Positions 3,027-43,808 of a stretch of 51,046 bases of DNA are shown here, one piece after another (the stretch's first letter is position 1; each line of letters begins with the position of its first letter). The DNA lies in NCBI RefSeq assembly GCF_023336905.1, contig NZ_JAMBLS010000024.1:1-51046 (forward strand), in the 5' to 3' direction. Both the position numbers and the translations under genes were made by a program. The notes under the pieces were generated by a model, which saw nothing but the letters and a program-made list of their open reading frames with translations, did no database searches and was not told where the DNA came from. The DNA is from Bacteroides sp. ET71. Lineage in GTDB: Bacteria; Bacteroidota; Bacteroidia; Bacteroidales; Bacteroidaceae.

Positions 3027-4265
3027 ATGAAAAACAGCAAGTTTTATCCTTGGGTTGTGGTGGGCCTTCTTTGGGTTGTGGCCCTATTGAATTACATGGA
3101 TCGTCAAATGCTTTCTACCATGCAGGAGGCGATGAAAGCTGACATTGTCGAATTGAACAAGGCTGAGGCGTTTGGCGCGCTGATGGCCGTCTTTCTTTGG
3201 ATTTACGGCTTCCTTAGTCCTGTGGCGGGTATGGTGGCCGATCGTATGAGCCGTAAGTGGCTTGTGGTGGGTAGTTTGTTCGTATGGTCATTTGTCACGT
3301 GGATGATGGGTTATGCCGATACCTTTCACCAACTCTATTGGCTTCGTGCCGTTATGGGGGTGAGCGAAGCTCTTTATATACCTTCTGCTCTTTCTTTAAT
3401 TGCCGACTGGCATCCAGGTAAGTCCCGTTCACTGGCTATCGGTATCCATATGACCGGGCTTTATGTGGGGCAAGCGGTTGGCGGTTTTGGTGCAACAATT
3501 GCGGCCATGTTCTCCTGGCACTCCACCTTCCACTGGTTTGGTATTATTGGTGTGGTCTATTCATTGGTGTTGATGTTATTACTGCACGAGAATCCTAACC
3601 ACGGCATCCGGGCTGAGAAACTGGCTGAAGGACCGAAAGAGAAGAAACCCTCGCTCTTTGCCGGTCTAGGCGTGTTGTTCTCCACGTGGGCTTTCTGGAT
3701 AATCCTCTTTTACTTTGCCGCACCGAGTCTGCCAGGTTGGGCCATCAAAAACTGGTCGCCTACGTTGTTCTCCGAAAGCTTGGGTATTCCAATGTCACAA
3801 GCCGGTCCCATCTCTACGATTACCATTGCTGTATCTTCATTCATTGGTGTCATTATCGGCGGTATCATGAGCGACCGCTGGGTGCAGCGCAACTTGCGCG
3901 GTCGTGTCTACACGGGTGCCATTGGCTTAGGATTAATGATTCCCGCCCTGTTGTTGCTGGGTTTCGGTCATAGCTTGATAGCTGTGGTAGGCTCGGGCCT
4001 GCTGTTTGGCATCGGTTATGGCATGTTCGACACGAATAATATGCCTATCCTTTGCCAGTTTGTTTCAGCCAAATATCGTGGCACGGCCTATGGATTGATG
4101 AACATGACCGGGGTTTTTGCTGGCGCAGCGGTGACCCAGGTGCTGGGCAAATGGACCGACGGTGGCAATCTGGGCTTGGGTTTCGCCATGCTGAGCATCT
4201 TTGTGCTGGTGGCTGTGAGCTTGCAACTCTATTTCCTGCGGCCGAAAACAGATAATATGGTATAA
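3027..4265 (+). CDS. nanT: MFS transporter, NanT-like sialic acid permease
   Basis: 412-residue major facilitator with about 12 hydrophobic segments. MFS signature regions are present: an ADRMSRKW loop after helix 2 (about 72-79) and a YGMFDTNN segment in the C-terminal half. Overall it resembles the hexuronate/sialate-type transporters of Bacteroides nanLET operons rather than E. coli NanT. It would move free N-acetylneuraminate across the inner membrane. It sits between the anomerase and lyase genes (39 bases to the latter). Third codon positions shift towards G and C along the gene. The substrate rests on context, since MFS specificity cannot be read from sequence alone. Confidence 0.82.
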   Translation: MKNSKFYPWVVVGLLWVVALLNYMDRQMLSTMQEAMKADIVELNKAEAFGALMAVFLWIYGFLSPVAGMVADRMSRKWLVVGSLFVWSFVTWMMGYADTFHQLYWLRAVMGVSEALYIPSALSLIADWHPGKSRSLAIGIHMTGLYVGQAVGGFGATIAAMFSWHSTFHWFGIIGVVYSLVLMLLLHENPNHGIRAEKLAEGPKEKKPSLFAGLGVLFSTWAFWIILFYFAAPSLPGWAIKNWSPTLFSESLGIPMSQAGPISTITIAVSSFIGVIIGGIMSDRWVQRNLRGRVYTGAIGLGLMIPALLLLGFGHSLIAVVGSGLLFGIGYGMFDTNNMPILCQFVSAKYRGTAYGLMNMTGVFAGAAVTQVLGKWTDGGNLGLGFAMLSIFVLVAVSLQLYFLRPKTDNMV

Positions 4266-4304: not shown

Positions 4305-5222
4305 ATGGAAAAGATTCTTGGATTGATTGATGCGCCGTTCACCCCGTTTTACGAGAATGGCGAAGTGAATTATGAGCCTATCGAGGCCTATGCGAAAATG
4401 CTTCAGAAGAATGGTCTGAAGGGCGTTTTTATTAATGGTTCATCCGGCGAGGGCTACATGTTGACTGAAGAAGAGCGCATGAAGCTGGTCGAACGTTGGC
4501 TGGAGGTAGCTCCGGAAGGCTTCAAGGTTATTGTACATGTGGGTAGCTGCTGCGTGAAGTCCAGTCGCCTGCTGGCCGAACATGCCCAGAAGATGGGTGC
4601 CTGGGGTGTGGGTGCCATGGCTCCCCCTTTCCCGAAGATTGGCCGCATCGAGGAGTTGGTGAAGTACATCGAAGAGATTGCTGCCGGTGCTCCCGACTTA
4701 CCTTTCTACTACTACCACATCCCCGCCTTCAACGGTGCCTATCTGTCGATGGTGAAGTTGCTTGAAGCTGTGGACGGACGTGTACCAAACTTCGCCGGCA
4801 TCAAATATACCTTCGAAAGCATGTACGAGTACAATCAATGTCGCCTCTACAAGAATGGCAAGTATGATATGCTGCACGGTCAGGACGAGACTATCCTCCC
4901 CTGCCTGGCCATGGGCGGCGCACAAGGTGGTATCGGCGGCACGACCAATTATAATGGCCGTGAGCTGGTGGGTATCATCGAAGCTTGGAAGAGCGGCAAC
5001 CTCGACCTGGCCCGCGAACGTCAGAACTTCTCGCAAGAGGTCATCAACGTCATCTGCAATTACCGCGGCAACATCGTCGCCGGCAAGCGTATCATGAAGC
5101 TCATCGGCCTGGACCTCGGCAAGAACCGCACGCCTTTCCAGAACATGACCGACGAAGAAGAGGCCTGCATGAAGGCGCAGCTCGATGCCATTGGCTTCTT
5201 CGACCGCTGCAATCGGTTCTGA
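4305..5222 (+). CDS. nanA: N-acetylneuraminate lyase
   Basis: 305-residue class I aldolase of the DHDPS/NAL family. It cleaves N-acetylneuraminate to pyruvate and N-acetylmannosamine in the cytoplasm. The GSSGEG carboxylate-binding motif lies near residues 46-51. Tyr137, in FYYYHIP, matches the catalytic Tyr137 of E. coli NanA. The Schiff-base lysine is Lys167 in GIKYT, the NAL-type context. Bacteroides fragilis calls the equivalent gene nanL. The neighbours (transporter upstream, epimerase downstream) give a complete nanLET-type set. A 159-base gap with a long inverted repeat separates it from the epimerase gene. DHDPS is unlikely because the context is sugar catabolism. Confidence 0.93.
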   Translation: MEKILGLIDAPFTPFYENGEVNYEPIEAYAKMLQKNGLKGVFINGSSGEGYMLTEEERMKLVERWLEVAPEGFKVIVHVGSCCVKSSRLLAEHAQKMGAWGVGAMAPPFPKIGRIEELVKYIEEIAAGAPDLPFYYYHIPAFNGAYLSMVKLLEAVDGRVPNFAGIKYTFESMYEYNQCRLYKNGKYDMLHGQDETILPCLAMGGAQGGIGGTTNYNGRELVGIIEAWKSGNLDLARERQNFSQEVINVICNYRGNIVAGKRIMKLIGLDLGKNRTPFQNMTDEEEACMKAQLDAIGFFDRCNRF

Positions 5223-5381: not shown

Positions 5382-6563
5382 ATGGATATAAAGAATTACC
5401 TGCAAACCTGGGCCGCTTCCTACCGCGACGATCTGACCCGCAACATCCTGCCTTTCTGGATGGAGCATGGCTTGGACCGCGAGCATGGGGGAGTCTACAC
5501 CTGTGTCAATCGCGACGGCAGCCTGATGGACGGCACCAAGTCCGTCTGGTTCCAAGGGCGCTTCGGCTTCATCGCCGCATACGCTTACAATCATATCGAG
5601 CGCAACCCCGAGTGGCTGGCCGCTTCGAAGAGTTGCATCGACTTCATCAAGCAGCACTGCACGGACACCGACGGGCGCATGTACTTCGAGGTCAGTGCCG
5701 AGGGCACGCCTCTGCGCAAGCGCCGCTACGTATTCTCCGAGACCTTCGCCGCCATCGCCATGTCCGAGTATGCCATCGCCTCGGGCGACAAGTCGTATGC
5801 CGAGAAGGCTTTGGACCTTTTCCGCAACATCCGCCGTTGGGTAGCCACGCCCGGCGTGCTGGAGCCCAAGTACCTGCCCGCAGTGCAGACCCGTGGACAC
5901 TCGCTTACGATGATTCTCATTAACACCGCCTCACGCATCCGTGCCGCCATCTCCGATCCCGAGCTGGACGAGCAGATTGACCAGTCCATCCACGACCTGC
6001 GGACCTATCACGTACATCCCGAGTTCAAGGCTCTGCTGGAGACGGTAGGTGCCAACGGCGAGTTCATCGACACCTGCAACGGCCGCCTCATCAATCCCGG
6101 CCACTGCATCGAGACGTCATGGTTTCTGCTTGAAGAAGCCCGCTACCGGAACTGGGACAAGGACCTGACCGACCTGGCCCTCCAAATCCTCGATTGGTCG
6201 TGGGACTGGGGTTGGGACAAAGCCTACGGCGGCCTCATCAACTTCCGCGACTGTCGCAACCTGCCCGTGCAGGACTACTCGCAGGACATGAAGTTCTGGT
6301 GGCCCCAGTGCGAAGCCATCATTGCCTCCCTCTACGCCTACCTGGCCACGCGGGACGAGAAGTACATCCTCATGCACCGGATGGCCAGCGATTGGACCTA
6401 CAGCCATTTCCCCGACCCGGACTATGGCGAATGGTACGGTTACCTACATCGCGACGGCACCGTGGCTCAACCGGCCAAGGGCAACCTCTTCAAAGGACCG
6501 TTCCATATCCCGCGGATGATGATGTACGGCTATGAACTTTGCCAAAAGATATGTTCTATTTAA
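5382..6563 (+). CDS. nanE: N-acylglucosamine 2-epimerase (AGE/RnBP family), NanE function
   Basis: 393 residues, normal for the AGE family, an (alpha/alpha)6 barrel. It interconverts N-acetylmannosamine and N-acetylglucosamine without phosphorylation, the route used by Bacteroides nanLET. Conserved stretches: RGHSLTMILINTASRIR (about 173-189), NPGHCIETSWF (about 233-243), WDWGWDKAYGG (about 273-283) and KFWWPQCEAI (about 304-313), carrying the catalytic-type histidines. Codons are strongly C-ending, in contrast to nanQ and to susC, which starts only 24 bases downstream. The start is the ATG preceded by an A/T-rich leader. This is not the NanE 6-phosphate epimerase of enterics, which is a shorter TIM-barrel protein. 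Confidence 0.9.
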   Translation: MDIKNYLQTWAASYRDDLTRNILPFWMEHGLDREHGGVYTCVNRDGSLMDGTKSVWFQGRFGFIAAYAYNHIERNPEWLAASKSCIDFIKQHCTDTDGRMYFEVSAEGTPLRKRRYVFSETFAAIAMSEYAIASGDKSYAEKALDLFRNIRRWVATPGVLEPKYLPAVQTRGHSLTMILINTASRIRAAISDPELDEQIDQSIHDLRTYHVHPEFKALLETVGANGEFIDTCNGRLINPGHCIETSWFLLEEARYRNWDKDLTDLALQILDWSWDWGWDKAYGGLINFRDCRNLPVQDYSQDMKFWWPQCEAIIASLYAYLATRDEKYILMHRMASDWTYSHFPDPDYGEWYGYLHRDGTVAQPAKGNLFKGPFHIPRMMMYGYELCQKICSI

Positions 6564-6587: not shown

Positions 6588-9575
6588 ATGAAAAAGTATC
6601 TATTAATTATCTGTTGCCTTTGTACCTACATGCTGGCCTTTGCGCAACAACGGACTGTGACCGGAACAGTGGTCGATGATCTCGGCCAGCCATTGATTGG
6701 CGTTTCCATTCTTGAGAAGGGCACCACCAACGGTGTCATCACTGATATGGATGGCAATTTTAGCCTGAAGTTAACTTCCGAAAATCCTACGCTTGTGTTC
6801 AGTTACATTGGCTATAAAACGCAAGAAGTGTCTGTGGGCGGCAAAACTACTCTAAACGTTACAATGTCAGAAGACGCCGAACAGTTGGATGAAGTGGTTG
6901 TCGTAGGTTATGGTGTACAGAAAAAGTCTAGTATGACGGCTTCCGTATCATCGGTATCCAGTAAAGAAATCGTCAAGACCATGTCGTCTAATGTCGCTTC
7001 TACTTTGCAGGGCCGTATGCCAGGCGTAGATATTGTTCAACAAGCAGGTGTAGCTGGCGCTGATGTTAATATATTGGTGCGTGGTGCAGCTTCCTTTGGT
7101 GCAACAGAACCTTTGTATGTGATAGACGGTGCTTTCAGTAACAATGGGCTGACTTCTATCAATCCTAACGATATTGAATCGATTGAAATTTTGAAAGACG
7201 GTGCCGCTGCTGCTATTTATGGTTCTCGTGCAGCCAATGGTGTAGTGCTGATCACTACCAAGCGTGGTAAATCAGGGAAACCGGTAGTTGAGATAAATGG
7301 CTCGTTTGCTGTCCAGACTCCAACCAATATTCCTGATTTTCTGAATGCCAGTCAGTGGAGAGAGTTTGCCAATATGGTGGCAGACAATAGTGGTATGGCT
7401 CATGCACCGGAAAATGACAATCCTACTTATCCAAATGTAGACACAGATTGGGCTGATGAATGGCTCCAATTTGCTCCCATGTGGAATTTGAACGCTAGTA
7501 TTTCAGGTGGTGGTGAAAATTCTACTTTCAGCACAAGTATTGGCTATTTGGATCAAACAGGTATGACTGTTTATTCAGATTACAAGCGTTATAACTTCCG
7601 TCTGAATTCTTCTTATAAGAAAGGTATATTTTCGTTGTCGGAGAACGTGGCTATTTCGCACAGAGACCAGACGCCTACAACAGCCTTCAACATCAAACTG
7701 CCTACTTTACCTATTTATGATAATGAAGGTCGATTGGTGTCCGGTGGACCGGATTACTATATAAATCCAGAAGATGGACAATCTAAAAACCCGTTTGCTT
7801 CATTGGAATATTCGGACAGATATAATAAAGTGACGGAAATCATCGGAGCATTGAATGCCGAACTTGATATCTGGAAGGGATTGAAATATAAATTGTCAGT
7901 TAGTGGCAATTATAGCGCAGGACATAATTATACACATACTCCGCAGTATGATACGAGATGGTTTGAAGATGGAACTGTGGATATAGATTATAGTAATACA
8001 GAGAACAGTGTTTCTGAATCAAGAAGTGAAGAATTTACCTATACTATTGATAACTTGTTGACTTACAATCAGACGTTTAACGGCCATCATGTGGATGCTC
8101 TGTTGGGTACAAGCTGGATGCGCGAATACAGCCGTAATATGTCTATTGCTACTATTGATGATTTGGGTGCAACAAACATTACTGGGTTTCAGGATATTGA
8201 CGGACGCATATCGGCTGGCGATTCTAATGCCGCATTGTTGTCATTCTTCGCTCGTTTGAACTATGATTATGAAGGTAAATACCTGTTGTCTGCCAGTATC
8301 CGTCGCGATGAATCCTCTAAGTTCTACAAAGATAATCGTGTAGGTTATTTCCCCTCTATTTCGGCAGGCTGGAACTTGCATCAAGAAGAATGGTTCGAGA
8401 ATCCGGTGATAAGCAAACTGAAGATACGTGGTAGTTATGGAGAGTTGGGAGCCAACTTCTTGGACCCGTACAACTTCGACCCCATAGCCTTCGGTCCTAT
8501 CCCTTATACGTTGGGTGGAAACCGTTATGTGGATGGACGTGCTGCTTATCTAAAATCTCGCGATTTGACTTGGGAAACGGCTAAGACGACGGACATCGGT
8601 ATTGAATTGGGCTTTTTGAATAATGACCTCACGGTGCAGGTGGATTACTTCATCAAGAAGAATGTAGACCTGTTGGCACAGATAGATTTGAATCTGTCTT
8701 CAGGCCAGGTATTTGAAATCAACAGTTCCAGTGAGAAACCTTATGTGAACTCGGCTTCGGTGAAGAATACTGGTTGGGAGTTCTTGATGAATTATCGCAA
8801 GCAACTGACGCGTGACTTCAGCATTGATGCTTCGTTCAACTTTTCTACTTTGAAGAACAAGGTGCTGGCTTTGGGTGATAATGTTCAGCCGATTACTTCG
8901 GGTGCTATGTCCAGCTATTTTAATGATTCTCCGTCTATTACCATGCCGGGGCATCCGATAGGCTCGTTCTATGGTTATCGTATCGACGGGTTCGATGCGA
9001 ACGGTGACTTTATTTTCTCAGATACAGATAACAATGGCATTGTGAATGCAGAAGACAAGGTCATTTTGGGTAATCCTATTCCGGACTTCAGCTATGGATT
9101 GAACATCAACATGACATACAAGGATTTTGACCTGACAATGTTCTTCCAAGGAGTGGCAGGCAATGAAATCTTCAATCAAATGAAGTACACGTATTACTTC
9201 GACTACTCCAACAACTGCGTGACGGACGTGTTGAACGCTTGGAGCGAGACGAACAAAAATACGAACATTCCTATCATGAAAACTGAGAATACTAATGGAG
9301 GCAACTCTCTGCCGAGTGAGTTCTATATTGAGAACGGTGCTTATTTCCGTTGTAAGAACTTCCAGATTGGTTATACGTTGCCAAAGAAATGCCTGGACAA
9401 GATGGGCTTCAACAACCTCCGTTTCTATGTGGGTGTGCAGAACCTCTTTACGATTACGGATTACTCTGGATACGATCCTGAAGTTAGTTCGAACGTATTG
9501 TTCTCTCGCGGTATCGATAATTCGTCTTATCCGAACGCCCGCACTTATACCTTTGGTTTCAATGCTTCCTTCTAA
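6588..9575 (+). CDS. SusC/RagA family TonB-dependent outer membrane transporter
   Basis: 995 residues. Signal peptide about 1-19 (ends AFAQ). CarboxypepD_reg-like N-terminal domain about 22-105 with the VVDDLGQPLIGVSI start. DEVVVVGYG TonB-box region about 105-113. Plug domain about 118-230 with GRMPGVDI, then LYVIDGAF, then EILKDGAAAAIYGSRAANGVVLITTKRG-type SusC signature. A 22-stranded barrel fills the rest, ending in an aromatic GFNASF. It imports oligosaccharide or free sugar with energy from TonB. It follows the epimerase gene by 24 bases and precedes susD by 10, so co-transcription is likely. A role like Tannerella NanO (sialic acid) is inferred from context only. Confidence 0.95.
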   Translation: MKKYLLIICCLCTYMLAFAQQRTVTGTVVDDLGQPLIGVSILEKGTTNGVITDMDGNFSLKLTSENPTLVFSYIGYKTQEVSVGGKTTLNVTMSEDAEQLDEVVVVGYGVQKKSSMTASVSSVSSKEIVKTMSSNVASTLQGRMPGVDIVQQAGVAGADVNILVRGAASFGATEPLYVIDGAFSNNGLTSINPNDIESIEILKDGAAAAIYGSRAANGVVLITTKRGKSGKPVVEINGSFAVQTPTNIPDFLNASQWREFANMVADNSGMAHAPENDNPTYPNVDTDWADEWLQFAPMWNLNASISGGGENSTFSTSIGYLDQTGMTVYSDYKRYNFRLNSSYKKGIFSLSENVAISHRDQTPTTAFNIKLPTLPIYDNEGRLVSGGPDYYINPEDGQSKNPFASLEYSDRYNKVTEIIGALNAELDIWKGLKYKLSVSGNYSAGHNYTHTPQYDTRWFEDGTVDIDYSNTENSVSESRSEEFTYTIDNLLTYNQTFNGHHVDALLGTSWMREYSRNMSIATIDDLGATNITGFQDIDGRISAGDSNAALLSFFARLNYDYEGKYLLSASIRRDESSKFYKDNRVGYFPSISAGWNLHQEEWFENPVISKLKIRGSYGELGANFLDPYNFDPIAFGPIPYTLGGNRYVDGRAAYLKSRDLTWETAKTTDIGIELGFLNNDLTVQVDYFIKKNVDLLAQIDLNLSSGQVFEINSSSEKPYVNSASVKNTGWEFLMNYRKQLTRDFSIDASFNFSTLKNKVLALGDNVQPITSGAMSSYFNDSPSITMPGHPIGSFYGYRIDGFDANGDFIFSDTDNNGIVNAEDKVILGNPIPDFSYGLNINMTYKDFDLTMFFQGVAGNEIFNQMKYTYYFDYSNNCVTDVLNAWSETNKNTNIPIMKTENTNGGNSLPSEFYIENGAYFRCKNFQIGYTLPKKCLDKMGFNNLRFYVGVQNLFTITDYSGYDPEVSSNVLFSRGIDNSSYPNARTYTFGFNASF

Positions 9576-9585
9576 TTAAAACACC

Positions 9586-11337
9586 ATGATTATGAAAAAT
9601 ATGACAAGATTAGCCGCTATTCTCCTGATTGGAGGAGGCATGGCGATGTCGAGCTGTGATGGCATTTTTGAAGATCTGGCCATCAATCCCAACCAGCCCA
9701 GTATGGATGCGTATTTTACGACGCCTGAGGCTGTAAACGATGCCGTGATGACATTATACGGCTACATTTCTACTCAACGTTGTCTGGGAGCTTCTGGTTC
9801 TAAGACTCAGATTATCCGTGGAGACGAGGCTTCATCCAACAGTGATTATGGAAAGCCCGGTATGTATGGCAGCGACCTTAATGCCAGTTATTATACCATC
9901 GAACAACCTTTTACGTTGATGTACACGACAGCATCACAAGCGTCATACGTTATTGAGACGATTGGAAACGTGGATTTCACGGGAGAGGAAGAATTGCGTG
10001 ACGCTTATTTGGGTGAAGCCTATTTCTGGCGTGCTTTTGCCCACTACTACTTGCTGATTAACTTCCGTCAGGTATGTCCGATTCGTCAGATGCCGCGTAA
10101 TTCTGCGGATTACGTGCGTGCACCGGAGGCACCTGAGGCTGTGTGGGACTTTATCCAAGAGGATTTGGCGAATGCCAAGACCTACTTGCCTAATAAGGGC
10201 TATTGGACAGGAGACCAAGCCGGACGCGTGACTCGCGGAGCTGCCGCTGCCCTTTCGGGCCTGTGCTACTTGTACCGCAGCGGCATTGAGACGCATTACG
10301 GCACGGATAAGACCACGTTCTACAATGAAGCCGTGCAAGAGTTCGATGAGATTATCAAGGGCACGTATGGTACTTATGATTTGGCAGATGACTATAGTGA
10401 TAATTTCGACATTGCGCATGAGAACAACAACGATGAATCCATCTTGGAGATACAGTTCTTAGGTGATGTGGAGAACAATACGTTCAATCCCGGTACGGCT
10501 ACTTCCGGCTTGGCTTTCGACAGCCGTGGTCTGATGTTCCCGGGTGCCGGTGTCGGTTACGAAGGAGTGGTTCATGACTGGCTGTACGAAGAGTTCGTCA
10601 ACTCGATTGACAAGGACGGCTGCACGGATATCCGCATGTTCTCTACGCTGATGTTCGATGACCAGAAAGAGGAGATTCATCTGCATCAGGATGCCAACGG
10701 CGATCCTATCCGCCTGGAAGGCCCCGGAGGCTGGCACTGGGAAGATATGTATCCGCCGACGGATGAGGCCGAAGGTTTCGCTACGGTAGCCAATCAATTG
10801 GCACACCCCTTCAAGGCCGGTATCAAGAAAGGTCTGGATTTGTCCATGCCTACGCTGACCAACGGCGACGGCTCGCCCCGTATGACAGGTGTGGGTGCCG
10901 GTACTCAGGAATATGTCTACAATCAGCCGCGTGCCCATGGCGTCAACTGGCGTTACTTACGTTTTGCCGATGTGCTGCTGATGTATGCCGAGGCTGTGCT
11001 GAGCGGCGGACAACAGGGTTCGTTGACACCGACGCAAGCTGTCAATCGTGTGCGCGGAAGAGCGAACATGCCGGATCTGGATAATGTAACGATGGACGAC
11101 GTGAAGCATGAGCGCATACTCGAGCTGTCGTTGGAAGGGCACCGTTTCTATGACCTGCTGCGTTGGGGTGAACTGGCCACACGCTTCCAGACGTTGACGC
11201 GTGAAGACCCGAATTTCAAGAAGTTCATTTCGGCCACGGACTACGAAGGCTTCACGACGAACAAGCATGAGTGGTTGCCCATTCCTATCAACGAAATCAA
11301 TTCTAACCCGAATATCAAGCAAAATCCCGGTTATTAA
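9586..11337 (+). CDS. SusD/RagB family surface glycan-binding lipoprotein
   Basis: 583 residues. Lipobox MSSC puts the lipidated Cys at residue 24; ATG at 9592 is an equally good start. SusD signatures: NPNQPS-type N-terminus after the lipobox, the DAYLGEAYFWRAFAHYYLLINF helix (about 142-163), RYLRFADVLLMYAEAVL (about 457-473) and the C-terminal RILELSLEGHRFYDLLRWGEL (about 507-527). It caps the SusC barrel and captures ligand at the cell surface. The start lies 10 bases after susC. Codons become G-ending towards the 3' end. Comparable in role to Tannerella NanU if the locus handles sialic acid; the ligand is unproven. Confidence 0.95.
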   Translation: MIMKNMTRLAAILLIGGGMAMSSCDGIFEDLAINPNQPSMDAYFTTPEAVNDAVMTLYGYISTQRCLGASGSKTQIIRGDEASSNSDYGKPGMYGSDLNASYYTIEQPFTLMYTTASQASYVIETIGNVDFTGEEELRDAYLGEAYFWRAFAHYYLLINFRQVCPIRQMPRNSADYVRAPEAPEAVWDFIQEDLANAKTYLPNKGYWTGDQAGRVTRGAAAALSGLCYLYRSGIETHYGTDKTTFYNEAVQEFDEIIKGTYGTYDLADDYSDNFDIAHENNNDESILEIQFLGDVENNTFNPGTATSGLAFDSRGLMFPGAGVGYEGVVHDWLYEEFVNSIDKDGCTDIRMFSTLMFDDQKEEIHLHQDANGDPIRLEGPGGWHWEDMYPPTDEAEGFATVANQLAHPFKAGIKKGLDLSMPTLTNGDGSPRMTGVGAGTQEYVYNQPRAHGVNWRYLRFADVLLMYAEAVLSGGQQGSLTPTQAVNRVRGRANMPDLDNVTMDDVKHERILELSLEGHRFYDLLRWGELATRFQTLTREDPNFKKFISATDYEGFTTNKHEWLPIPINEINSNPNIKQNPGY

Positions 11338-11351
11338 TCTTTATTGTTTGA

Positions 11352-13034
11352 ATGAATATGAAACGATTGATATATGCTTTAGCTTGCCTGCTGGCATTTC
11401 CGTTGGGAATGACGGCCCAGACTACGTTGAGCAACGGTATCGAACTGCCTGCCCAGTGGCCGCCGCGCTACGAGGTACCGGCAGAGCGGAAAGAGATGCC
11501 CGTCCCTTATTTGCAGCAGAAACCTGAGGTGATTCCCGTCAACACGGGGCGGCAGTTGTTTGTGGACAGTTTTCTGATTGAGGAGACGACATTGGTGCCG
11601 GTCTATCACAAACCTAACTTCTATGCGGGCAATCCGGTGCTGGAGCCGACGGAGAAGTGGGAGGAGACGACCGAGGGAGCTCCGTATGCTTCGCCCTTCA
11701 GCGACGGTATCTGGTATGACGACCAGACGGGCAAGTTCCGTATGTGGTATCTGGCCGGGGCCGGGACGATTCACAAGCAATCGAACCAGACGTTCTACAC
11801 TTGCTATGCCGAGTCGGAAGACGGGAAGCACTGGACGAAGCCTACGCTGGACTTGGTGCCGGGCACGAACATTGTGGATACGTGCAACCGCGACGCGGCC
11901 ACTGTATGGCTGGACCGGATGGAGAAGGACCCTGCCAAGCGCTGGAAGTTCTTCAACGTAGAACGTCGTCCGCTGGACAGCCGCTGGTCGTGCATCTTGA
12001 AGTATAGCGCCGATGGCATCCATTGGTCGGAAGGCGTGGCGCAGAGCGGCGACTTGTATGACCGCACGTCGGCCTTCTACAATCCTTTCACCGGGAAGTG
12101 GGCGTTGAGCATGAGGTACAGTACGCCGGTGTCTTACCGCAGCCGTGCTTACCTGGAACACAGCGACCCGGAGATGCTGGTCAGCCTGGCGCACCGTATG
12201 CGTCGCGACGTGCCCGACAAGTTCGTGCACTTCTGGTTTACGCCGGACGACAAGGAGCTGCGTCACCCGAAGTATCCGGAGGTGGAGCCGGGCATCTATA
12301 ACTTCGATGCCATTGCTTACGAGAGCATCATGTTGGGATTGTACAGCGCGTGGTGTGGCCCGGAGAATGACATCTGCAAGCGCGACGGCATCCAGAAGCG
12401 CAATGTGGTGTCGTTGGGTTACAGCCGCGACGGTTTCCACTTCTCGCGCCCCACGCACGAGGCGTTTATGGACGTGAACGAGACGGAGGGTGCGTGGAAC
12501 TGGGGTAACATGCAGTCCATCAACGGTGTGCCCCTCATCGTGGGCGATTCGCTCTACTTTTACAGCAGCGGCCGGAGGTTGAACAAGATTATGTGGGACA
12601 GTTATACGTCTACCGGATTGGCTACGTTGCGCCGCGATGGTTTCGTGTCGATGCGTGCCGGACGGGAAGAGGGGACGCTGACCACGGAGAAGTTGTCGTT
12701 CGACGGCAAGTATTTCTTTGTCAATGCCGACGTGAAGGCGAAGAAGGCGCAGTTGGCCGTGGAGTTGCTGGACGAGCAGGGCACGCCTATCCCCGGATTT
12801 ACGAAGAAGGATTGTGTGGTGATGAAGAAGGCCGACAGCACGAAGCAACTGGTGACGTGGAAGAACAACGCTGACCTCTCGTCGTTGAAGGGCAAGGTCA
12901 TCCGCGCGAAGTTCTACCTGACGAACGGTGACTTGTATGCTTTCTGGATTTCGCCCTGGCAGTCGGGCGAGAGCCGTGGCTATACTGCCGGCGGAGGCCC
13001 GGGGCTGAATGCCTGCGGGGTAGACCGTCCGTGA
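11352..13034 (+). CDS. P1: secreted propeller-like putative glycoside hydrolase (family unassigned)
   Basis: 560 residues with a signal peptide (about 1-22, ends MTAQ). Shared N-terminal motif NGI-LP-QWPPR at 28-39 and GRQLFVDSFLIE at 66-77, then PFSDGIWYDDQTGKFRMWY (115-133). Three SxDGxxW-type turns occur at 155-161, 219-225 and 358-364 (the last ends in F), as in five-bladed propellers related to GH32/GH43/GH130. Also seen: GPENDIC (336-342), WNWGNMQS and a C-terminal sandwich-like part ending in GYTAGGGPGL (543-552). Paralogous to P2 (14471) and P3 (18153). It starts 14 bases after susD, so it belongs to the PUL operon. A glycan-active enzyme is inferred; the reaction is unknown. Codons are strongly G-ending. 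Confidence 0.75.
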   Translation: MNMKRLIYALACLLAFPLGMTAQTTLSNGIELPAQWPPRYEVPAERKEMPVPYLQQKPEVIPVNTGRQLFVDSFLIEETTLVPVYHKPNFYAGNPVLEPTEKWEETTEGAPYASPFSDGIWYDDQTGKFRMWYLAGAGTIHKQSNQTFYTCYAESEDGKHWTKPTLDLVPGTNIVDTCNRDAATVWLDRMEKDPAKRWKFFNVERRPLDSRWSCILKYSADGIHWSEGVAQSGDLYDRTSAFYNPFTGKWALSMRYSTPVSYRSRAYLEHSDPEMLVSLAHRMRRDVPDKFVHFWFTPDDKELRHPKYPEVEPGIYNFDAIAYESIMLGLYSAWCGPENDICKRDGIQKRNVVSLGYSRDGFHFSRPTHEAFMDVNETEGAWNWGNMQSINGVPLIVGDSLYFYSSGRRLNKIMWDSYTSTGLATLRRDGFVSMRAGREEGTLTTEKLSFDGKYFFVNADVKAKKAQLAVELLDEQGTPIPGFTKKDCVVMKKADSTKQLVTWKNNADLSSLKGKVIRAKFYLTNGDLYAFWISPWQSGESRGYTAGGGPGLNACGVDRP

Positions 13035-13048
13035 GAAAAGGTACAGGG

Positions 13049-13133
13049 CGGGGACGCAGCACTAAATTTAAGTGATGGTTTCAAAACAGGTTATATTTGC
13101 CATGATATATCTCTGAAGTTTGCACCCCGCCCG
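13049..13133. repeat. GGGCGGGG...CCCCGCCC inverted repeat after P1
   Basis: An 8-bp perfect dyad about 70 bases apart, followed by CTTTTAT. It may end the SusCD-P1 transcript, but the loop is long and a promoter-like box lies inside it. Confidence 0.4.
13067..13099 (+). promoter_or_regulatory. Possible promoter of the HU/DUF4469 gene
   Basis: TATATTTG at 13092-13099 fits the -7 consensus, with TTTA about 21 bases upstream. Transcription from here would give a leader of roughly 175 bases, rich in GC hairpins, before the ATG at 13282. Confidence 0.45.
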
Positions 13134-13143
13134 CTTTTATAAC

Positions 13144-13262
13144 AGCCCTTCCCAAGCCTCTCCCTAACCTTCCCCGGTGGGGAGGAAAGTGGGCATCGGA
13201 AGGGGAAGATTGAAATAATGTATGTACGCGTCCCCTCCCTCACGGGGGGAGGAGGGAGGGGG
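13144..13262. repeat. GC-rich palindromic repeat region before the HU gene
   Basis: Contains CTTCCCCGGTGGGGAG near 13169-13184 and a perfect 10-bp hairpin, CCCCTCCCTC at 13232-13241 with GAGGGAGGGG at 13252-13261, ending 20 bases before the HU start codon and followed by a short T run. The mix of CCCTCCC and GGGGAGG blocks looks like a dispersed intergenic element. It could fold over or mask the start region. Confidence 0.55.
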
Positions 13263-13281
13263 CTTTTAAAATTTAATAGCT

Positions 13282-14136
13282 ATGTCAACCAAAGAACCAA
13301 CTCAAAAAGCGAAGTTCCTGTTGAAAGCTCTGGAGCTGTCGCTGACCACCGATGTGAAAGACGACTACTACCTGCAGCCGAAGTTGCAGAAGTGCCTCTC
13401 GCTGGACGACCTGGCCGCCGAAGTGGCCGCGCTGAGCGCCCGCCAGGAAGATGCCGAAGACATTGCCCGCACGGGCCGCGACCTGATGAAGCGCATGATG
13501 TGGTTCCTCTCGGCCGGTTACAGCGTGAGCACCCCGCTGGGTTATTTCCGCCCCACGGCGCAGGGCGTGTTCATGGAGTCGGAGCTGAACGAAGCCATCG
13601 ACCGTTCGCGCCTGACGCTGGGTGTGAAATATTCGATGAGCGACGAGATGCGCCAGGCCCTGGCCGACGCCGAGATTGACGTCGAGGTGCAGAAAGCGAC
13701 TGCCGGGCCGCAGCTCTACGCCGTGGTCAGCGCGCACGATGCCGACCACCCCGACGCCGTCACCCGCGGCGAAGGCGTGCCCGTCAGCGCGGGCCAGGTC
13801 TGCGTCATCAAGGGTCGCAACATCAAGGTGGGCGGCGACGGGGCCGACATCGGCGTCACCATCACCCGCGTGGACGGTAGCGAGGGGACGACGTATTTCT
13901 TCCCCGTGAAGAAGCTCTATCCCAACACATCGGCACGTGTGGGTTTTGTGATGCCGTCTGATGCACCCGATGGCAGCGTGTGGAGCGTGAAACTGTGCAC
14001 GCAATTGGGGAACAGCGGTAACCTGCTGAAAGTATCGCGTACGGTGACGATGGACGAGAATTTTGTCATTGGTGAAACAGGCACCTCTATTCCGGGTGAA
14101 GACGATGACGATTCCGGACAAGGAACCTTTGGATAA
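13282..14136 (+). CDS. HU-like DNA-binding protein with DUF4469 domain
   Basis: 284 residues, no signal peptide. The N-terminal part (about 1-125) resembles the HU-like DNA-binding domain of Bacteroidales, with GYSVSTPLGYFRPTAQG in place of the usual HU beta-arm lead (about 79-95). The C-terminal part (about 140-255) resembles the Ig-like DUF4469 domain, with GQVCVIKGRNIKVGG. The acidic tail is rich in Asp. Function: presumably nucleoid or structured-DNA binding; not characterised as far as I know. It interrupts the PUL between P1 and P2 and is flanked on both sides by palindromic repeats. Codons are markedly C-ending, whereas P1 just upstream is G-ending. Confidence 0.8.
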   Translation: MSTKEPTQKAKFLLKALELSLTTDVKDDYYLQPKLQKCLSLDDLAAEVAALSARQEDAEDIARTGRDLMKRMMWFLSAGYSVSTPLGYFRPTAQGVFMESELNEAIDRSRLTLGVKYSMSDEMRQALADAEIDVEVQKATAGPQLYAVVSAHDADHPDAVTRGEGVPVSAGQVCVIKGRNIKVGGDGADIGVTITRVDGSEGTTYFFPVKKLYPNTSARVGFVMPSDAPDGSVWSVKLCTQLGNSGNLLKVSRTVTMDENFVIGETGTSIPGEDDDDSGQGTFG

Positions 14137-14137
14137 A

Positions 14138-14261
14138 TAATCTGAAGCAATCTCAGATAGTAATCTGAAGTAACCTCAGATAGTAATCTGAAGTAACCTC
14201 AGATAGTAATCTGAAGTAATCTCAGATAGTAATCTGAAGTAATCTCAGATAGTAATCTGAA
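14138..14261. repeat. Tandem array, five 23-bp palindromic units
   Basis: Units start at 14138, 14161, 14184, 14207 and 14230, with a partial sixth at 14253. Each carries the dyad ATCTGA / TCAGAT around a 7-base centre. The dyad arms are invariant, and differences are single C/T changes in the centre. It begins 1 base after the HU stop codon. There are no spacers, so it is not CRISPR. Confidence 0.9.
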
Positions 14262-14300
14262 ACACCCCTCGACAGTAATATTGACGTATTTGTAATGTAT

Positions 14301-14438
14301 CTGTCATGTTGAGCGTTGTTCTCCCCCGATAACGGGGGAGTAAAGAGGGGGTGCGCAGCGGAGTCGAAACATCTCCTTCCGGCCCAGTCACAAGGACAAA
14401 GCCATAGAGAGATATCTCGACAGCGTTCAGAATGACAG
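14301..14438. repeat. Long inverted repeat element, copy 1 (CTGTCAT...ATGACAG)
   Basis: Starts CTGTCATGTTGAGCG and ends CAGCGTTCAGAATGACAG. Internal GGAGTCGAAACATCTCC is shared with copy 2 at 43667-43773. A perfect 7-bp hairpin (CTCCCCC GATAAC GGGGGAG, 14321-14340) is nested inside the left arm. It resembles dispersed REP-like elements with TGTCATTCTGAGC ends seen in many genomes. Its last bases supply an in-frame ATG at 14432 that is not the start of P2. Confidence 0.8.
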
Positions 14439-14470
14439 ATAGAAAAGAAAACTCTAAAACAGCGAATAAT

Positions 14471-16192
14471 ATGAAGAAACTTTGGATTTTTTCGATAGCC
14501 TCGTTGCTCTTCCTGCTTCCCGCCGGATGCAGCGACGACAACCCGGGCGGCTCCGGACCCACACCCGACCCGGACCCCGAGGTGCCCGTGACGCCCGAAG
14601 ATCCGAACACGCTGTACAACGGCATCAAGCTGCCCGACCAGTGGCCGCCCCGCCGTTCGTACTCCTCGGACATACGCGCCGGCATGACACCCTACTACCT
14701 GACCACCTCCAAGCCAGCCGTGGTCAACATCGCCGTGGGTCGCCAGCTCTTCGTCGACGACTTCCTCGTCGAGAGCACCACGCTCGAACGCAAGTTCCAC
14801 TACGCCACCTATTACGCCGGCAACCCCATCCTCGAACCCGACCAAGACTGGGAACGCATGGGCACCTCCGGGGCAGCCTTTGCAGCCCCCTTCAGCGACG
14901 GCGTGTGGTATGACGAAACCGACAGCAAGTACAAAATGTGGTACATGGCCGGCGGAGGCGACGACGGAGAAGGCGCCACCTGCTACGCCGAATCCACCGA
15001 CGGCATCACCTGGACGAAACCCACGCTGAACGTCGTGGACGGCACCAACATCGTCGACCAGAACGACACCCAGCGCGACGCCACCGTCATCTGGCTGGAC
15101 AAACAGGAAACCAACTCCTCGCGACGCTACAAGATGTTCCAAGTGGCCGGCGGCGCAGGCAACTGGCAGTACCACTACAAGACATCGGCCGACGGAAAGA
15201 TATGGCGCGACATGTCGGCACCCTCCGGGTCCATCGCCGACCGTTCCACCGTCTACAAAAACCCCTTCCGCGACGTCTGGGTATGGTCCATGCGCCACAA
15301 CGTACGCCTGAACCAGAGCGACCCCTACACCATCCGCGCACGCGACTACTACGAAGCCGCCGACCCGCTGTCCAACCGCAACGTCGAGGCCGACCTCCAA
15401 TACTTCTGGTTCGGCCCCTGGCCGGATGAGCAGACGCACCCCTACTACCACAACAACGACGGCTCGCCCGGCATCTACAACCTCGACGCCACACCCTACG
15501 AAAGCATCATGCTCGGACTCTTCTCCGTATGGCAAGGCCCCGAGAACGATGTCTGCGCAGCGGACAACGTCATCAAACGCAACCAAATCATGCTCGGCTA
15601 CAGCCGCGACGGTTACAGTTGGCTGCGCGAAGACATGAACCCCTTCCTGCCCGTCGACGAAAATCGCTCGGCCTGGAACAACGGAAACCTCCAGTCCGTC
15701 GTCGGCTCACCCCTCATCGTAGGCGACGAACTATACTTCTACCTCAGCGGCCGGCGCCTGCAAGGCACCCAGGAAATCACCACCACCGGACTGGCCACGC
15801 TCCGTCGCGACGGATTCGCCTCGATGAGCGGTTCGGGTGAACTGACCACCCCCGTGCTGAAATTCGACGGAGAATACTTCTTCGTCAACGCCGACCTGAC
15901 GGGCGAACTGCGCGTCGAACTCCTGGACGAAGACGGCAACGTCCTCTCCGGATTCTCGAAAGACGACTGCACCCCCCTCACGGGCGACGGCACAATGCTG
16001 CCCGTCCGCTGGGCCGCCAACACCACGCTGGCCTCCCTGCAAGGGCAGAACATCAAAGTCCGCTTCTACCTGGAAGGGGGCGACCTCTACGCTTTCTGGA
16101 TTTCGCCCGATGCCGACGGAGCCAGCCACGGCTACACCGGCGGCGGAGGCCCCGGCCTGGACGCATCCGGATTAGACATCAGCAACAATTAA
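14471..16192 (+). CDS. P2: lipoprotein paralogue of P1, propeller-like putative glycoside hydrolase
   Basis: 573 residues from the ATG at 14471, chosen because it opens a clean lipoprotein signal (MKKLWIFSIA...LLPAGC, Cys20). The upstream ATG at 14432 lies in the repeat. A Pro/Asp-rich linker (about 23-45) would tether it at the surface. Same architecture as P1: NGIKLPDQWPPR (50-61), RQLFVDDFLVE (91-101), PFSDGVWYDE, three SxDGxxW turns at 175-181, 239-245 and 378-384, GPENDVC (356-362), WNNGNLQS, C-terminal GYTGGGGPGL (554-563). Followed after 21 bases by the PKD/PQQ gene. Function unknown; a surface glycan-degrading role is inferred. Codons are C-ending, unlike P1. Confidence 0.75.
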   Translation: MKKLWIFSIASLLFLLPAGCSDDNPGGSGPTPDPDPEVPVTPEDPNTLYNGIKLPDQWPPRRSYSSDIRAGMTPYYLTTSKPAVVNIAVGRQLFVDDFLVESTTLERKFHYATYYAGNPILEPDQDWERMGTSGAAFAAPFSDGVWYDETDSKYKMWYMAGGGDDGEGATCYAESTDGITWTKPTLNVVDGTNIVDQNDTQRDATVIWLDKQETNSSRRYKMFQVAGGAGNWQYHYKTSADGKIWRDMSAPSGSIADRSTVYKNPFRDVWVWSMRHNVRLNQSDPYTIRARDYYEAADPLSNRNVEADLQYFWFGPWPDEQTHPYYHNNDGSPGIYNLDATPYESIMLGLFSVWQGPENDVCAADNVIKRNQIMLGYSRDGYSWLREDMNPFLPVDENRSAWNNGNLQSVVGSPLIVGDELYFYLSGRRLQGTQEITTTGLATLRRDGFASMSGSGELTTPVLKFDGEYFFVNADLTGELRVELLDEDGNVLSGFSKDDCTPLTGDGTMLPVRWAANTTLASLQGQNIKVRFYLEGGDLYAFWISPDADGASHGYTGGGGPGLDASGLDISNN

Positions 16193-16213
16193 TCATTTTA
16201 AAATCTAACGAAT

Positions 16214-18046
16214 ATGAGAACTCTGACATTCCTCCTGTTAGCCCTCGCGCTAACCTTCGTCACCTCCTGCAAGGACGATGACACCGTCTACAACACAGCC
16301 GCCGATGCCGGCTTCAGCGTAGGCAACGAATACGAAGTGGGCGAACCCATCACCTTCACCGACAACACCGTGCCCGAAGAAGGCACCACCATTGTCTCCT
16401 GGCTCTGGAAGTTCGGCGACGAAGCAGGCTCCACCTCCAACGAGCAGAACCCCACCTTCACCTACATGAAAGACGGCAACTACACCGTGAGCCTGACCGT
16501 GACCGACAGCAACGGCCTCAAGGCCCGCCACGAACAGGTGGTGACCATCATCAACCCCACCACACCCGACTTTACGACCGATAAAGAAGAGTACGAGATG
16601 GGAGAGACCGTGCAATTCACCGACGCCACCACGACGAAAGCAGGCACGACCATCACCGCCTGGCATTGGTCCTTCGGCGATGCCGACGGCAACACGTCCG
16701 ACGAGCAGAACCCCGTCTTCGTCTATACCGAACCCGGCTCGTACGCCGTCACGCTGACCGTGACCGACAGCTACGACCTGGAAGCATCTGTCACCAAGAA
16801 CATCACCGTCTACGACCCCGCCGCTGCCGCTTCCCTGGAATGGAGCGCCCTGCTGGGCGGCAAAGTGCAGGCCGGCTCTTCTGCCGCCCTCTCGCCCGAC
16901 GGCTCCACCGTCTACATGATGCGTAGCCTCAGTGGCAGCGATGTGGCAGCCCTCGTAGCCTATGATGCCGCTAGCGGCAGCCAGAAATGGATGGTAGACC
17001 TCAGTGTTGCCATGTCAGGTGTGTCGTCCACGGCCCAGGCCAAAGACATCTTCAGCAGCCCATCGGTAGACGACAACGGCAATGTTTACATGATTGTCCG
17101 CGACCTCCAGTCGGAAAACGACCGCAACCTGTATACCATCAGCGTTGCCTCCGACGGCAGCCTGCGCTGGGCAGTTCCCGTGGCTACCCCGAGTTCTAAC
17201 CTCTACGCCACGACTCCCGCCATCGCTGCAGACGGCAACATCTTCGTCGCACACCGCGACGGCAAGGTAGTCAGCCTGACGCCCGACGGCCAGTACACGG
17301 AATACGCCTCTACCGGATTGAGCAACATCACCAGCGGCGTAGCTATCTCCCGCAGCGGAATGGTTTACGTGACCGGCGGCAACTCACTCGGCCTGTTCGG
17401 CTATAACCCCTCTACCGATGCTTCGTGGACATACAACACGAACTTCGGCGGAGCCAGCAGCGCACTGATTGGCGCACTGAAGAGCACCACGGTAGCTATT
17501 GGCACCGACGGCACCGTTTATTCCGTGTCCGACGCTGCTGACGGCACAGGCATCATCTTCGCCGTAGACGGCACTACCGGCACCGAGAAATGGGCATACA
17601 GCACGGTGAGCGCCATTCCCGACGGTGGTGTGGCATTGGGCGCCGACGGCACCATCTATGCATCGGGCGGCGAACACCTGGCCAGCACGTCATCGGCCGG
17701 CATCTATGCCCTCAATCCCGACGGAACGTTGAAGTGGCACTATCCTTCCGGCGCATCTGTACAGACTTCACCCGTGGTCGACAGCCGTGGCTACATCCAC
17801 TTCGTCGATGCAGAAGCCACCTATTATGTACTGACAGCCGAAGGCGAATTGTACTCATCCATTTCTCTGGGTGATGCTTGCGCCTCTTCGCCGGTGATGG
17901 ACGCTCAAGGCAACCTCTATGTGGCAGTAAATGCCAATGGCCAGTATCAGGTTGTCTGCGCTTCGTCGAAAGGCGACAGCTATGCAACGGATTCTCCGTG
18001 GCCCATGCGAGGCGGTAATCCTCAGCGTACCGGATTGCAAAAGTAA
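16214..18046 (+). CDS. Surface lipoprotein with two PKD domains and a PQQ-like propeller
   Basis: 610 residues. Lipobox VTSC gives lipid Cys19. Two PKD-like domains (about 31-115 and 117-203) carry the WxFGD core (WLWKFGD and WHWSFGD) and the YTVSLTVTD / YAVTLTVTD strand. From about 205 a propeller of PQQ/BamB-like blades follows, with repeated DGTVYSV, DGTIYAS and GTEKWAYS, ending in the WPMRGGNPQRTG signature. No catalytic residues are recognised. It is likely exposed at the surface and binds glycan or protein, in the place a surface glycan-binding protein often takes in PULs. It lies 21 bases after P2 and is closed by a strong terminator. Confidence 0.8.
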   Translation: MRTLTFLLLALALTFVTSCKDDDTVYNTAADAGFSVGNEYEVGEPITFTDNTVPEEGTTIVSWLWKFGDEAGSTSNEQNPTFTYMKDGNYTVSLTVTDSNGLKARHEQVVTIINPTTPDFTTDKEEYEMGETVQFTDATTTKAGTTITAWHWSFGDADGNTSDEQNPVFVYTEPGSYAVTLTVTDSYDLEASVTKNITVYDPAAAASLEWSALLGGKVQAGSSAALSPDGSTVYMMRSLSGSDVAALVAYDAASGSQKWMVDLSVAMSGVSSTAQAKDIFSSPSVDDNGNVYMIVRDLQSENDRNLYTISVASDGSLRWAVPVATPSSNLYATTPAIAADGNIFVAHRDGKVVSLTPDGQYTEYASTGLSNITSGVAISRSGMVYVTGGNSLGLFGYNPSTDASWTYNTNFGGASSALIGALKSTTVAIGTDGTVYSVSDAADGTGIIFAVDGTTGTEKWAYSTVSAIPDGGVALGADGTIYASGGEHLASTSSAGIYALNPDGTLKWHYPSGASVQTSPVVDSRGYIHFVDAEATYYVLTAEGELYSSISLGDACASSPVMDAQGNLYVAVNANGQYQVVCASSKGDSYATDSPWPMRGGNPQRTGLQK

Positions 18047-18072
18047 AAGTATGTTGAAGAGTAGATAGATAG

Positions 18073-18126
18073 GCTTCCTGTATTATGATGCTTATTTTAA
18101 GGCGTTGTAATACAGGAAGCTTTTTT
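18073..18126 (+). terminator. Rho-independent terminator after the PKD/PQQ gene
   Basis: Perfect 13-bp stem GCTTCCTGTATTA (18073-18085) with 18108-18120, 22-base loop, then TTTTTT. It leaves P3 with only 26 bases of leader, so P3 depends on read-through or a promoter I cannot see. Confidence 0.88.
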
Positions 18127-18152
18127 ATAGATTTTAGCCTGTTTGTATGCTT

Positions 18153-19736
18153 ATGAAAAAGAAAAAAATAGCTGTTATCTTGCTTTCCTTTATCTTGTGT
18201 GGCAGCGGCGGACAACTGTTTGCTCAAAGGACAGAACCGGCAGCCACCCTCTTACCCGGCCGGCAATTGATGGCCGACACCACTTGGGTAGCTGAAACCT
18301 CGGGACTGGAATCTGTCTTCCACGTCCCAACCTATTATCCTTGTAATCCCGTCGTCAAGGCTGACCGCCCGTGGGAACTCAATGTAAACGGCGATCCCTA
18401 TGCCGCCCCTTTCAGTGGTGGTGTGTGGTTCGATGAGACGGACGGAAAGTACAAAATGTGGTATTCCGCCGGCGGTGGTAAACGGCTGGGATTGATTACG
18501 TGTTATGCAGAATCTGAGGATGGGAAATCATGGCTGAAGCCTGTACTGGACGTTGTGCCCGGCACGAATATTGTCGATACCTTGGAGCATGACTGTATGT
18601 CCGTCCTGCTGGACAAACACGAGACTGATGCTTCGAAGCGTTTCAAGATGTTCATCGTGGAGTTCAACAGCCGGTTCACTGTCAGTATGAAGTTGAAGTA
18701 TTCGCCCGACGGCATCCATTGGAGCGGTCCGCAGGCTTTGTCCGGCGAACTCTACGACCGTTGTGCGGCTTATTATGACCCTTTCCGGGGAAAATACGTG
18801 CTATCGCTGAAAACGATTGACGGGCCATATGGACGTGCGCGTAATTACTTGGCGCACCAAGATCCCGAGATGCTGGTCAGTCTGGCCCATCGTGTGTATG
18901 ATAACCAGGCCGATAAGTTCATCCGTTATTGGTTTCATGCTGATGAAGATGACCCGCGTAACCCGCACTTTCCTGCTATTCGTCCACAGATATATAATCA
19001 TGAAGCCATGCCTTATGAGAACCTGATGTTGGGCTACTTTACTGTCTGGCAAGGTCCTGAGAACGATGCTTGCGATAGCTTGATGGTGCAGAAGCGTAAC
19101 GAAGTGCTTGTCGGCTTCAGTCGCGACGGCTTCCATTGGGACAGAAGGTTCAAACAACCTTTCTTGCCGGTCTGCGAGGACTTTCATGCCTGGAACGCAG
19201 GCAATGTACAGTCGGTGGCCGGTTGTCCGTTGATAGTGGGCGATTCGCTTTATTTCTACATGAGCGGGCGTTACAACAGCAAGCCGAAGCATGATTCCAA
19301 TTTCGCCACCGGCCTGGCCATGCTCCGCAAGGACGGATTCGTGTCTGTTCGTGCTGGGCAGGAGGAAGGCACGTTGTTGACGAAGCCTTTTCGGCTAGAC
19401 GGTGCTTATCTCTTTGTCAATGCCGACGTGTGCGGCAAGAAGAGCTCACTTCGCGTGGAACTGTTGGACGAATCAGGACAGCCAGTCCCCGGTTTCACCC
19501 GCCGGGACTGTGTGGTGATGAAGAAAGTGGACAGCACGAAATTCTTAATCACCTGGAAAGGTCATTCGGATGTATCTTCTTTAAAGGGAAAAACTGTCCG
19601 GGTGAAATTCTATCTGAAGGAAGCAGATTTGTACTCCTTTTGGTTTTCTCCGTGGAAGACGGGCGAAAGCAATGGATATACCGCCGGAGGAGGGCCCGGG
19701 CTGAGCCGAACAGGAAGGGATACTCTTGTTCGGTAG
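18153..19736 (+). CDS. P3: secreted paralogue of P1/P2, propeller-like putative glycoside hydrolase
   Basis: 527 residues from ATG 18153 (18147 also possible). Signal peptide about 1-25 (ends LFAQ), no lipobox. It lacks the N-terminal NGI-LP-QWPPR motif. FVDxFLIE is changed to LMADTTWVAE (39-48), so that region has diverged. The rest is conserved: PFSGGVWFDETDGKYKMWY (86-104), SxDGxxW turns at 121-127, 184-190 and 323-329, GPENDAC (301-307), WNAGNVQS, and C-terminal GYTAGGGPGL. Codons are mixed. Function unknown; the divergence suggests a related but different substrate or linkage from P1 and P2. Confidence 0.72.
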   Translation: MKKKKIAVILLSFILCGSGGQLFAQRTEPAATLLPGRQLMADTTWVAETSGLESVFHVPTYYPCNPVVKADRPWELNVNGDPYAAPFSGGVWFDETDGKYKMWYSAGGGKRLGLITCYAESEDGKSWLKPVLDVVPGTNIVDTLEHDCMSVLLDKHETDASKRFKMFIVEFNSRFTVSMKLKYSPDGIHWSGPQALSGELYDRCAAYYDPFRGKYVLSLKTIDGPYGRARNYLAHQDPEMLVSLAHRVYDNQADKFIRYWFHADEDDPRNPHFPAIRPQIYNHEAMPYENLMLGYFTVWQGPENDACDSLMVQKRNEVLVGFSRDGFHWDRRFKQPFLPVCEDFHAWNAGNVQSVAGCPLIVGDSLYFYMSGRYNSKPKHDSNFATGLAMLRKDGFVSVRAGQEEGTLLTKPFRLDGAYLFVNADVCGKKSSLRVELLDESGQPVPGFTRRDCVVMKKVDSTKFLITWKGHSDVSSLKGKTVRVKFYLKEADLYSFWFSPWKTGESNGYTAGGGPGLSRTGRDTLVR

Positions 19737-29647: not shown

Positions 29648-29684
29648 TCGCTTGATTGAAAAACGGCCTCTTATGTAACCGTTT

Positions 29685-43565: not shown

Positions 43566-43666
43566 AATCGAACAGGCTGCCTGTTAAGTCTTTTCCCCGA
43601 TAAACAGTAATTTCCTGCACTGTCGGCAACAGACTTCCGGCATCGCTCTTTGGCGAACCTCTTCAC

Positions 43667-43773: not shown

Positions 43774-43808
43774 TTACCCGGCATTTTCATCTTTTAAACG
43801 ATACCGAT

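Follow-up and report, generated by a model that had tools for sequence, protein, structure and literature searches.

Three propeller-like proteins of a Bacteroides sialic acid cluster as candidate members of an unassigned glycosidase family

The window analysed here, a stretch of 51,046 nucleotides from Bacteroides sp. ET71 (contig NZ_JAMBLS010000024.1), carries a sialic acid cluster with three paralogous propeller-like proteins, P1, P2 and P3. We favour the reading, at a probability of about 0.5, that these proteins represent an unassigned family of glycosidases, and that its branch in Bacteroidota and Bacillota cleaves sialic acid, or a near relative among the nonulosonic acids, off glycans. 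The cluster lies on the + strand between 1003 and 19736 and runs from a regulator through YhcH, an MFS transporter, NanA, AGE, SusC, SusD, P1, an HU-like protein, P2 and a PKD-PQQ lipoprotein to P3 (Table 1); it holds the NanA-type lyase, epimerase and transporter by which a sialic acid utilisation cluster is recognised.

Identity to P1 is 52% for P2 and 54% for P3, all three open reading frames (ORFs) are intact, and a search of the genome with P1 returned three matches, namely P1, P2 and P3. They have in common the motifs GPENDxC, WNxGNxQS, LIVGDxLYFY and GYTxGGGPGL, together with SxDGxxW turns in the propeller-like part (the third turn of P1 ends in F). The N-termini, judged by eye, are signal-peptide-like in P1 and P3 and carry a lipobox, LPAGC, in P2; a crude script that called P1 a lipoprotein and P2 a non-lipoprotein was overruled by this inspection. 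The sequence-only reading of this DNA, which had described three paralogues with these motifs, signal peptides on P1 and P3 and a lipobox on P2, is borne out on both counts. Surface lipoproteins of Bacteroidota are marked by acidic residues following the lipoprotein cysteine; at this position P2 has CSDD and the neighbouring PKD protein CKDDD. Alternative in-frame ATG codons lie at 14432 for P2 and 18147 for P3.

Comparison with the relatives in locus L006 (L numbers denote the loci of relatives introduced below) gave ratios of nonsynonymous to synonymous substitution rates (dN/dS) of 0.085, 0.101 and 0.042 for P1, P2 and P3, at a synonymous divergence (dS) above 1 that for P3 is near saturation, and all three proteins are under purifying selection. 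In six of six P3 members compared, G stands for D118 and H for R180, and P3 may for that reason differ from P1 and P2 in specificity or mechanism. A match of P3 to Csx19 in PADLOC (E 0.0003, no stretch passing alone) was dismissed as chance.

A contig search gave 248 relatives, the best 80 of which were kept, representing 74 loci (50 from Bacteroidota and Bacillota, 24 from other phyla); 73 sequences from these loci and the three of the window make up a family alignment of 76 sequences. Forty-two columns are invariant, including five arginines and a Tyr-Glu pair, and R67, E104, D123, D181, D237, R265, Y316, Y323, E324, K349, R366, R408 and R427 are among the invariant residues. The pair and the five arginines may come together in a single pocket. 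Five blades were counted by eye, with inner strands beginning near S117, D181, D237, Y323-E324 and N386-Q388; in a comparison of the profile with itself, blade 1 matches blade 2 (55%) and blade 4 shows up weakly (at most 8%). The C-terminal part reads as a beta-sandwich.

No family in Pfam or NCBIfam matched P1-P3 above its curated cut-off. Among PDB sequences the family profile has just two matches at E 1 or lower, both of them phosphorylases of GH130 type (E 0.0025 and 0.0047) and none from GH156 or GH181, and hhalign against a GH130 profile built here gave 55% over 85 columns, a distant similarity covering blades 1-2; the Pfam profile of GH130 (PF04041) matched none of the 76 members at E 0.1. 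For GH32 hhalign gave 2.5%, and PF00251 hit two of the 76 members (best E 0.0039) without placing the family in GH32. The GH33 profiles PF13088 and PF13859 found no match in P1-P3, and BNR_2 hit one of the 76 members at E 0.058, below the cut-off. Comparison with glycoside hydrolase families, a check of the kind envisaged in the sequence-only reading, thus gave no family-level match for GH33, GH143, GH130 or GH32, with GH130 as the best, weak one. These signals suggest the GH130/GH32-like propeller superfamily and not GH33, and the fold is probably a propeller of that kind, with five blades and the C-terminal beta-sandwich. Neither Pfam and NCBIfam nor the PDB sequences give the family an assignment, and it may already bear a CAZy family number; among open-licence PMC literature, we found no paper whose title or abstract describes it.

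A useful comparison is GH143, whose Dha hydrolase BT1020 is described as a five-bladed propeller that cleaves a sialic-acid-like sugar via a Tyr-Glu pair (PMC6811678). P1-P3 resemble it in the pair, perhaps also in the number of blades, and differ in sequence (hhalign 14% over 35 columns; PF24067 E 0.21 with P1, cut-off not reached). GH143 is evidence that cleavage of such a sugar by a Tyr-Glu pair is within the reach of a five-bladed propeller.

The link of the P1 family to sialic acid genes is strong in Bacteroidota and Bacillota and is seen again in many genera. Homologues of NanA and AGE are both present in 20 of the 50 loci from these phyla (L006-L010, L012, L014, L018-L021, L025-L027, L030-L032, L034, L048 and L070), and a NanA-type aldolase without AGE in five more (L017, L035, L043, L047, L065). 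In a tree of 103 rows, with clades called on starred branches, P2 and P3 each have a starred clade to themselves (18 and 12 rows, respectively), nan-linked in 14/18 and 9/12, and the rows of these clades come from Bacteroidaceae, Muribaculaceae, Porphyromonadaceae, Rikenellaceae and Prolixibacteraceae. On this tree the nan label requires 20 changes against 34 in shuffles, and none of 500 shuffles was as low, near-copies adding to the clustering. NanA at 65% identity or more is found in 33 of 44 P1-positive genomes versus 36 of 119 sampled Bacteroidaceae at E 1e-60 (Fisher p 3.5e-7), a comparison of little weight, as taxa and threshold differ between the sets; the 119 are the family sample without its two P1-positive genomes. 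In that full sample P1 relatives occur in 2/121 genomes, the window's own included, and the lyase in 37/121; in the window's genome the lyase search gave one match at E 1e-60.

In Bacillota, P1 relatives occur in Bacillus sp. FJAT-50079 (L035, 66% identity) and in a Caccovicinus metagenome-assembled genome (MAG; L065, 61%). Each lies in a sialic acid operon of another type, with NanE (308 and 289 bits, respectively, cut-off 189) and a lyase that resembles NanA but scores under the cut-off (239 and 234 bits against 281). Both clusters also have a ROK-family kinase and an ABC importer of two permeases and a binding protein, and that of L065 has YhcH as well; catabolic route, lyase subtype and transporter are unlike those of the Bacteroides cluster. 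A crude hydropathy scan found no signal peptide in either P1 relative. Such a cytoplasmic form beside the lyase would suit P1-P3 acting on free or rearranged sialic acid (an anhydro form, a lactone or an anomer), or merely binding it, as do other propellers in sialic acid clusters, for example NANM in L009 and L048. We consider this improbable: a surface lipoprotein and two secreted paralogues behind a SusCD pair better suit glycan cleavage, and YhcH is already in the cluster. Each of the two Bacillota clusters also contains another, distant propeller relative, about 480 amino acids long and without a Pfam match (L035:15207-16649, L065:9206-10645).

GH33-type sialidases were surveyed in 44 P1-positive genomes (of 50), with BNR_2 at E 1e-10 and BNR_3 at E 0.001. 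Ten lack a BNR_2 match, one of them (L031) having a BNR_3 match; neither was found in the other nine (L007, L012, which is B. gallinarum, L015, L020, L028, which is B. propionicigenes, L032, L035, L037 and L065), several of which are MAGs and possibly incomplete, and the search took in no sialidase family but GH33. In six of these nine, all Bacteroidota, NanA is present at 76-90% identity. Another of the nine, L037 (a Bacillota MAG contig of 3.3 kb), has probably been misbinned, because its protein carries a lipoprotein signal and groups with rows of Parabacteroides and P. vulgatus; the counts of 50 loci, 44 genomes and nine genomes still include it. Within the window, no GH33 or acetylesterase was found among the cluster genes scanned (all except SusC and SusD) or in 20 further ORFs; the only other glycosidases there are a GH25 (46307-47167) and a GH3 (48250-50847). 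In L007 a GDSL/SASA esterase lies downstream.

If glycan release is the role of P1-P3, work at the cell surface would fall to P2 and the PKD-PQQ lipoprotein, which is probably a surface glycan binder and whose gene is kept adjacent to P2 in many loci. Sialylated oligosaccharides would enter through SusCD and lose the acid to P1 and P3 in the periplasm; import of the acid by the MFS protein would follow, and YhcH, NanA and AGE would convert it to N-acetylglucosamine. The three paralogues might serve linkages or modified acids beyond the reach of the genome's lone GH33. A bolder version, which we hold only tentatively, is that P1-P3 found a new sialidase family, five-bladed and unrelated in sequence to GH33, cytoplasmic in Bacillota and an old three-member set of surface and periplasm in Bacteroidota, which would give gut bacteria lacking GH33 access to sialoglycans.

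GH33 enzymes are described as six-bladed propellers with an Arg triad and Tyr/Glu (PMC6811678, PMC12018670). NanH of Bacteroides, like P1-P3, is a secreted propeller in or near sialic acid loci, with sialic acid as the expected product, but its family matches theirs in one SxD-type turn only (hhalign 1.3%). Several observations, that negative comparison among them, weigh against release of sialic acid by P1-P3. The window's own genome has one BNR_2 (GH33-type) protein, on contig C14, and a BNR_2 match is present in 34 of the 44 P1-positive genomes. In L025 and L030 a BNR_assoc_N/BNR_2 sialidase follows P1 directly and in L048 a BNR_2 protein stands beside it, a GH33-type gene thus adjoining P1 in at least 3 of the 50 loci, counted from selected neighbours. 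Outright replacement of GH33 by P1 was rejected on the strength of these neighbours and the GH33 in the own genome. The same facts, with GH130 as the best profile match, would fit P1-P3 being glycosidases that act on another bond of the same sialoglycans, such as that of a capping sugar or of the sugar below sialic acid, the acid itself being left to GH33. This is rather unlikely, in that P1 and the lyase occur without a GH33-type match in the Bacillota clusters and in several genomes of Bacteroidota.

Linkage is incomplete as well. Neither NanA nor AGE lies in the available stretch of 25 of the 50 Bacteroidota and Bacillota loci, several of whose contigs end nearby, no locus of the other phyla (24 in all) has a NanA or AGE homologue of at least 40% identity, those in L061 and L071 being weak at 24% and 27%, and one P1-positive genome, G109 (88% complete), gave no lyase match at E 1e-60. 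The wider P1 family of the other phyla is situated away from nan genes: for 75 neighbour ORFs from 19 of those 24 loci, the 25 commonest of 97 Pfam families include no sialic acid gene, and sulfatase and GH109-type domains occur twice each. P1 might then belong to a general glycosidase family of varied substrates, its adjacency to nan genes in some Bacteroidota being accessory and without a fixed sialic acid link; the 25/50 and 24/24 loci without close NanA or AGE speak for this, as do the at least 16 changes of the nan label forced on starred branches. We think it improbable too, the link recurring with two different catabolic and transport routes and the label being more clustered than in any shuffle, near-copies contributing.

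An unlinked branch shows P1 in another setting. In P. gordonii (L036), P. goldsteinii (L038) and P. vulgatus ATCC 8482 (L039) a P1 relative directly follows SusC and SusD, with no NanA or AGE in the stretch around it, and NanA is found elsewhere in these genomes at 85-87% identity. Ahead of the P1 relative in L036 are genes for an ECF sigma factor and FecR, and L038 and L039 have like-sized ORFs there. The arrangement fits a small regulated uptake system with P1 as its enzyme, whatever its substrate.

Liberation of sialic acid or a close relative by P1-P3 thus stays the reading that we prefer. The glycan-releasing role first proposed gains from the unassigned family, from the recurring nan linkage and from carriers without GH33, and is held back by GH33 in trans and beside P1 and by the half of the loci that are unlinked; release of the acid itself is something that we infer. 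Linkage to nanA and AGE genes, the neighbourhood evidence that the sequence-only reading had looked to, exists for part of the family, and its statement that no sialidase is visible is true of the cluster and the scanned ORFs of the window, not of the genome.

The window resembles the NanLET and NanOU clusters described for B. fragilis and T. forsythia (PMC3969230, PMC10017367, PMC13114119) in its lyase, AGE-type epimerase, MFS transporter and SusCD pair, and is unlike them in that P1-P3 occupy the place of NanH; none of the 19 PDB matches of its SusD at E 1e-10 is named NanU. The cluster is a variant of known sialic acid loci, and its P1-P3 enzymes may be new.

Table 1. Genes of the sialic acid cluster in the window.
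Feature	Position	Strand	Basis
ROK-family regulator (NagC-like), probable nan regulator	1003..2214	+	Pfam ROK 2.3e-58, helix-turn-helix at N-terminus
YhcH/NanM-type sialic acid anomerase-like protein	2560..3006	+	TIGR00022 110.7 bits, above cut-off; NF040884 below cut-off
MFS transporter, probable inner membrane uptake	3027..4265	+	PF07690 1e-56; closest NCBIfam is ACS-type 2A0114, below cut-off
NanA-type N-acetylneuraminate lyase	4305..5222	+	best PDB match 6arh, E 7.9e-57; NCBIfam NanA models below cut-off
AGE-type N-acylglucosamine 2-epimerase	5382..6563	+	PDB 8bry, E 4.7e-126; NF052547 below cut-off
SusC-type outer membrane transporter	6588..9575	+	read from sequence; homologues precede P1 in many loci
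SusD-type binding lipoprotein	9586..11337	+	PDB SusD matches, 3jq1 E 2.2e-28
P1, unassigned propeller protein, signal peptide	11352..13034	+	ORF, motifs; no Pfam/NCBIfam match above cut-off
HU-like DNA-binding domain and DUF4469, between P1 and P2	13282-14136		Pfam
P2, P1 paralogue, lipoprotein, acidic residues after cysteine	14471..16192	+	ORF, motifs; no Pfam/NCBIfam match above cut-off
Lipoprotein, two PKD domains and PQQ-type propeller	16214..18046	+	PKD_4 8.8e-30, PQQ_2 3.8e-14
P3, P1 paralogue, signal peptide, short N-terminus	18153..19736	+	ORF, motifs; no Pfam/NCBIfam match above cut-off

The HU-like/DUF4469 gene has homologues in the same position in L005, L006 and L008, and an HU-HIG gene resembling it is present at 43650-44456. 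The gap that separates P3 from the PKD protein holds, at 18073-18120, a strong terminator-like hairpin of 20 pairs followed by a T run, because of which P3 may be transcribed separately from the upstream genes; scans of this sort give a similar number of sites when the sequence is shuffled. Near P1 or P3 in three other loci there is a second secreted protein of 840-923 amino acids with propeller-like repeats (L006:16541-19075, L028:6488-9007, L007:12179-14947), followed in L006 and L028 by a protein of about 310 amino acids. Those of L006 and L028 have no Pfam match at E 1e-4, that of L007 matches by its sorting tail only, and that of L006 has no PDB match; they are possibly a further unnamed enzyme family. 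Farther along the window, at 24962-26953, a glucosamine-6-phosphate isomerase domain is fused to a PIG-L domain, a possible later step in amino sugar use, and at 27317-35234 a transglycosylase/transpeptidase (PBP1C-like) adjoins a bacterial alpha-2-macroglobulin gene, a pairing known from other bacteria.

A 2023 review, in its account of gut microbial sialidases, assigns these enzymes to GH33, and notes numerous uncharacterised susCD genes in sialic acid clusters of Bacteroidetes (PMC10017367). Named isolates that carry the P1 family without a GH33-type match (B. gallinarum, B. propionicigenes and a Bacillus) make the question directly testable. If P1-P3 do free sialic acid, counts of GH33 would miss part of its release in the gut, a second enzyme family having gone unrecognised.

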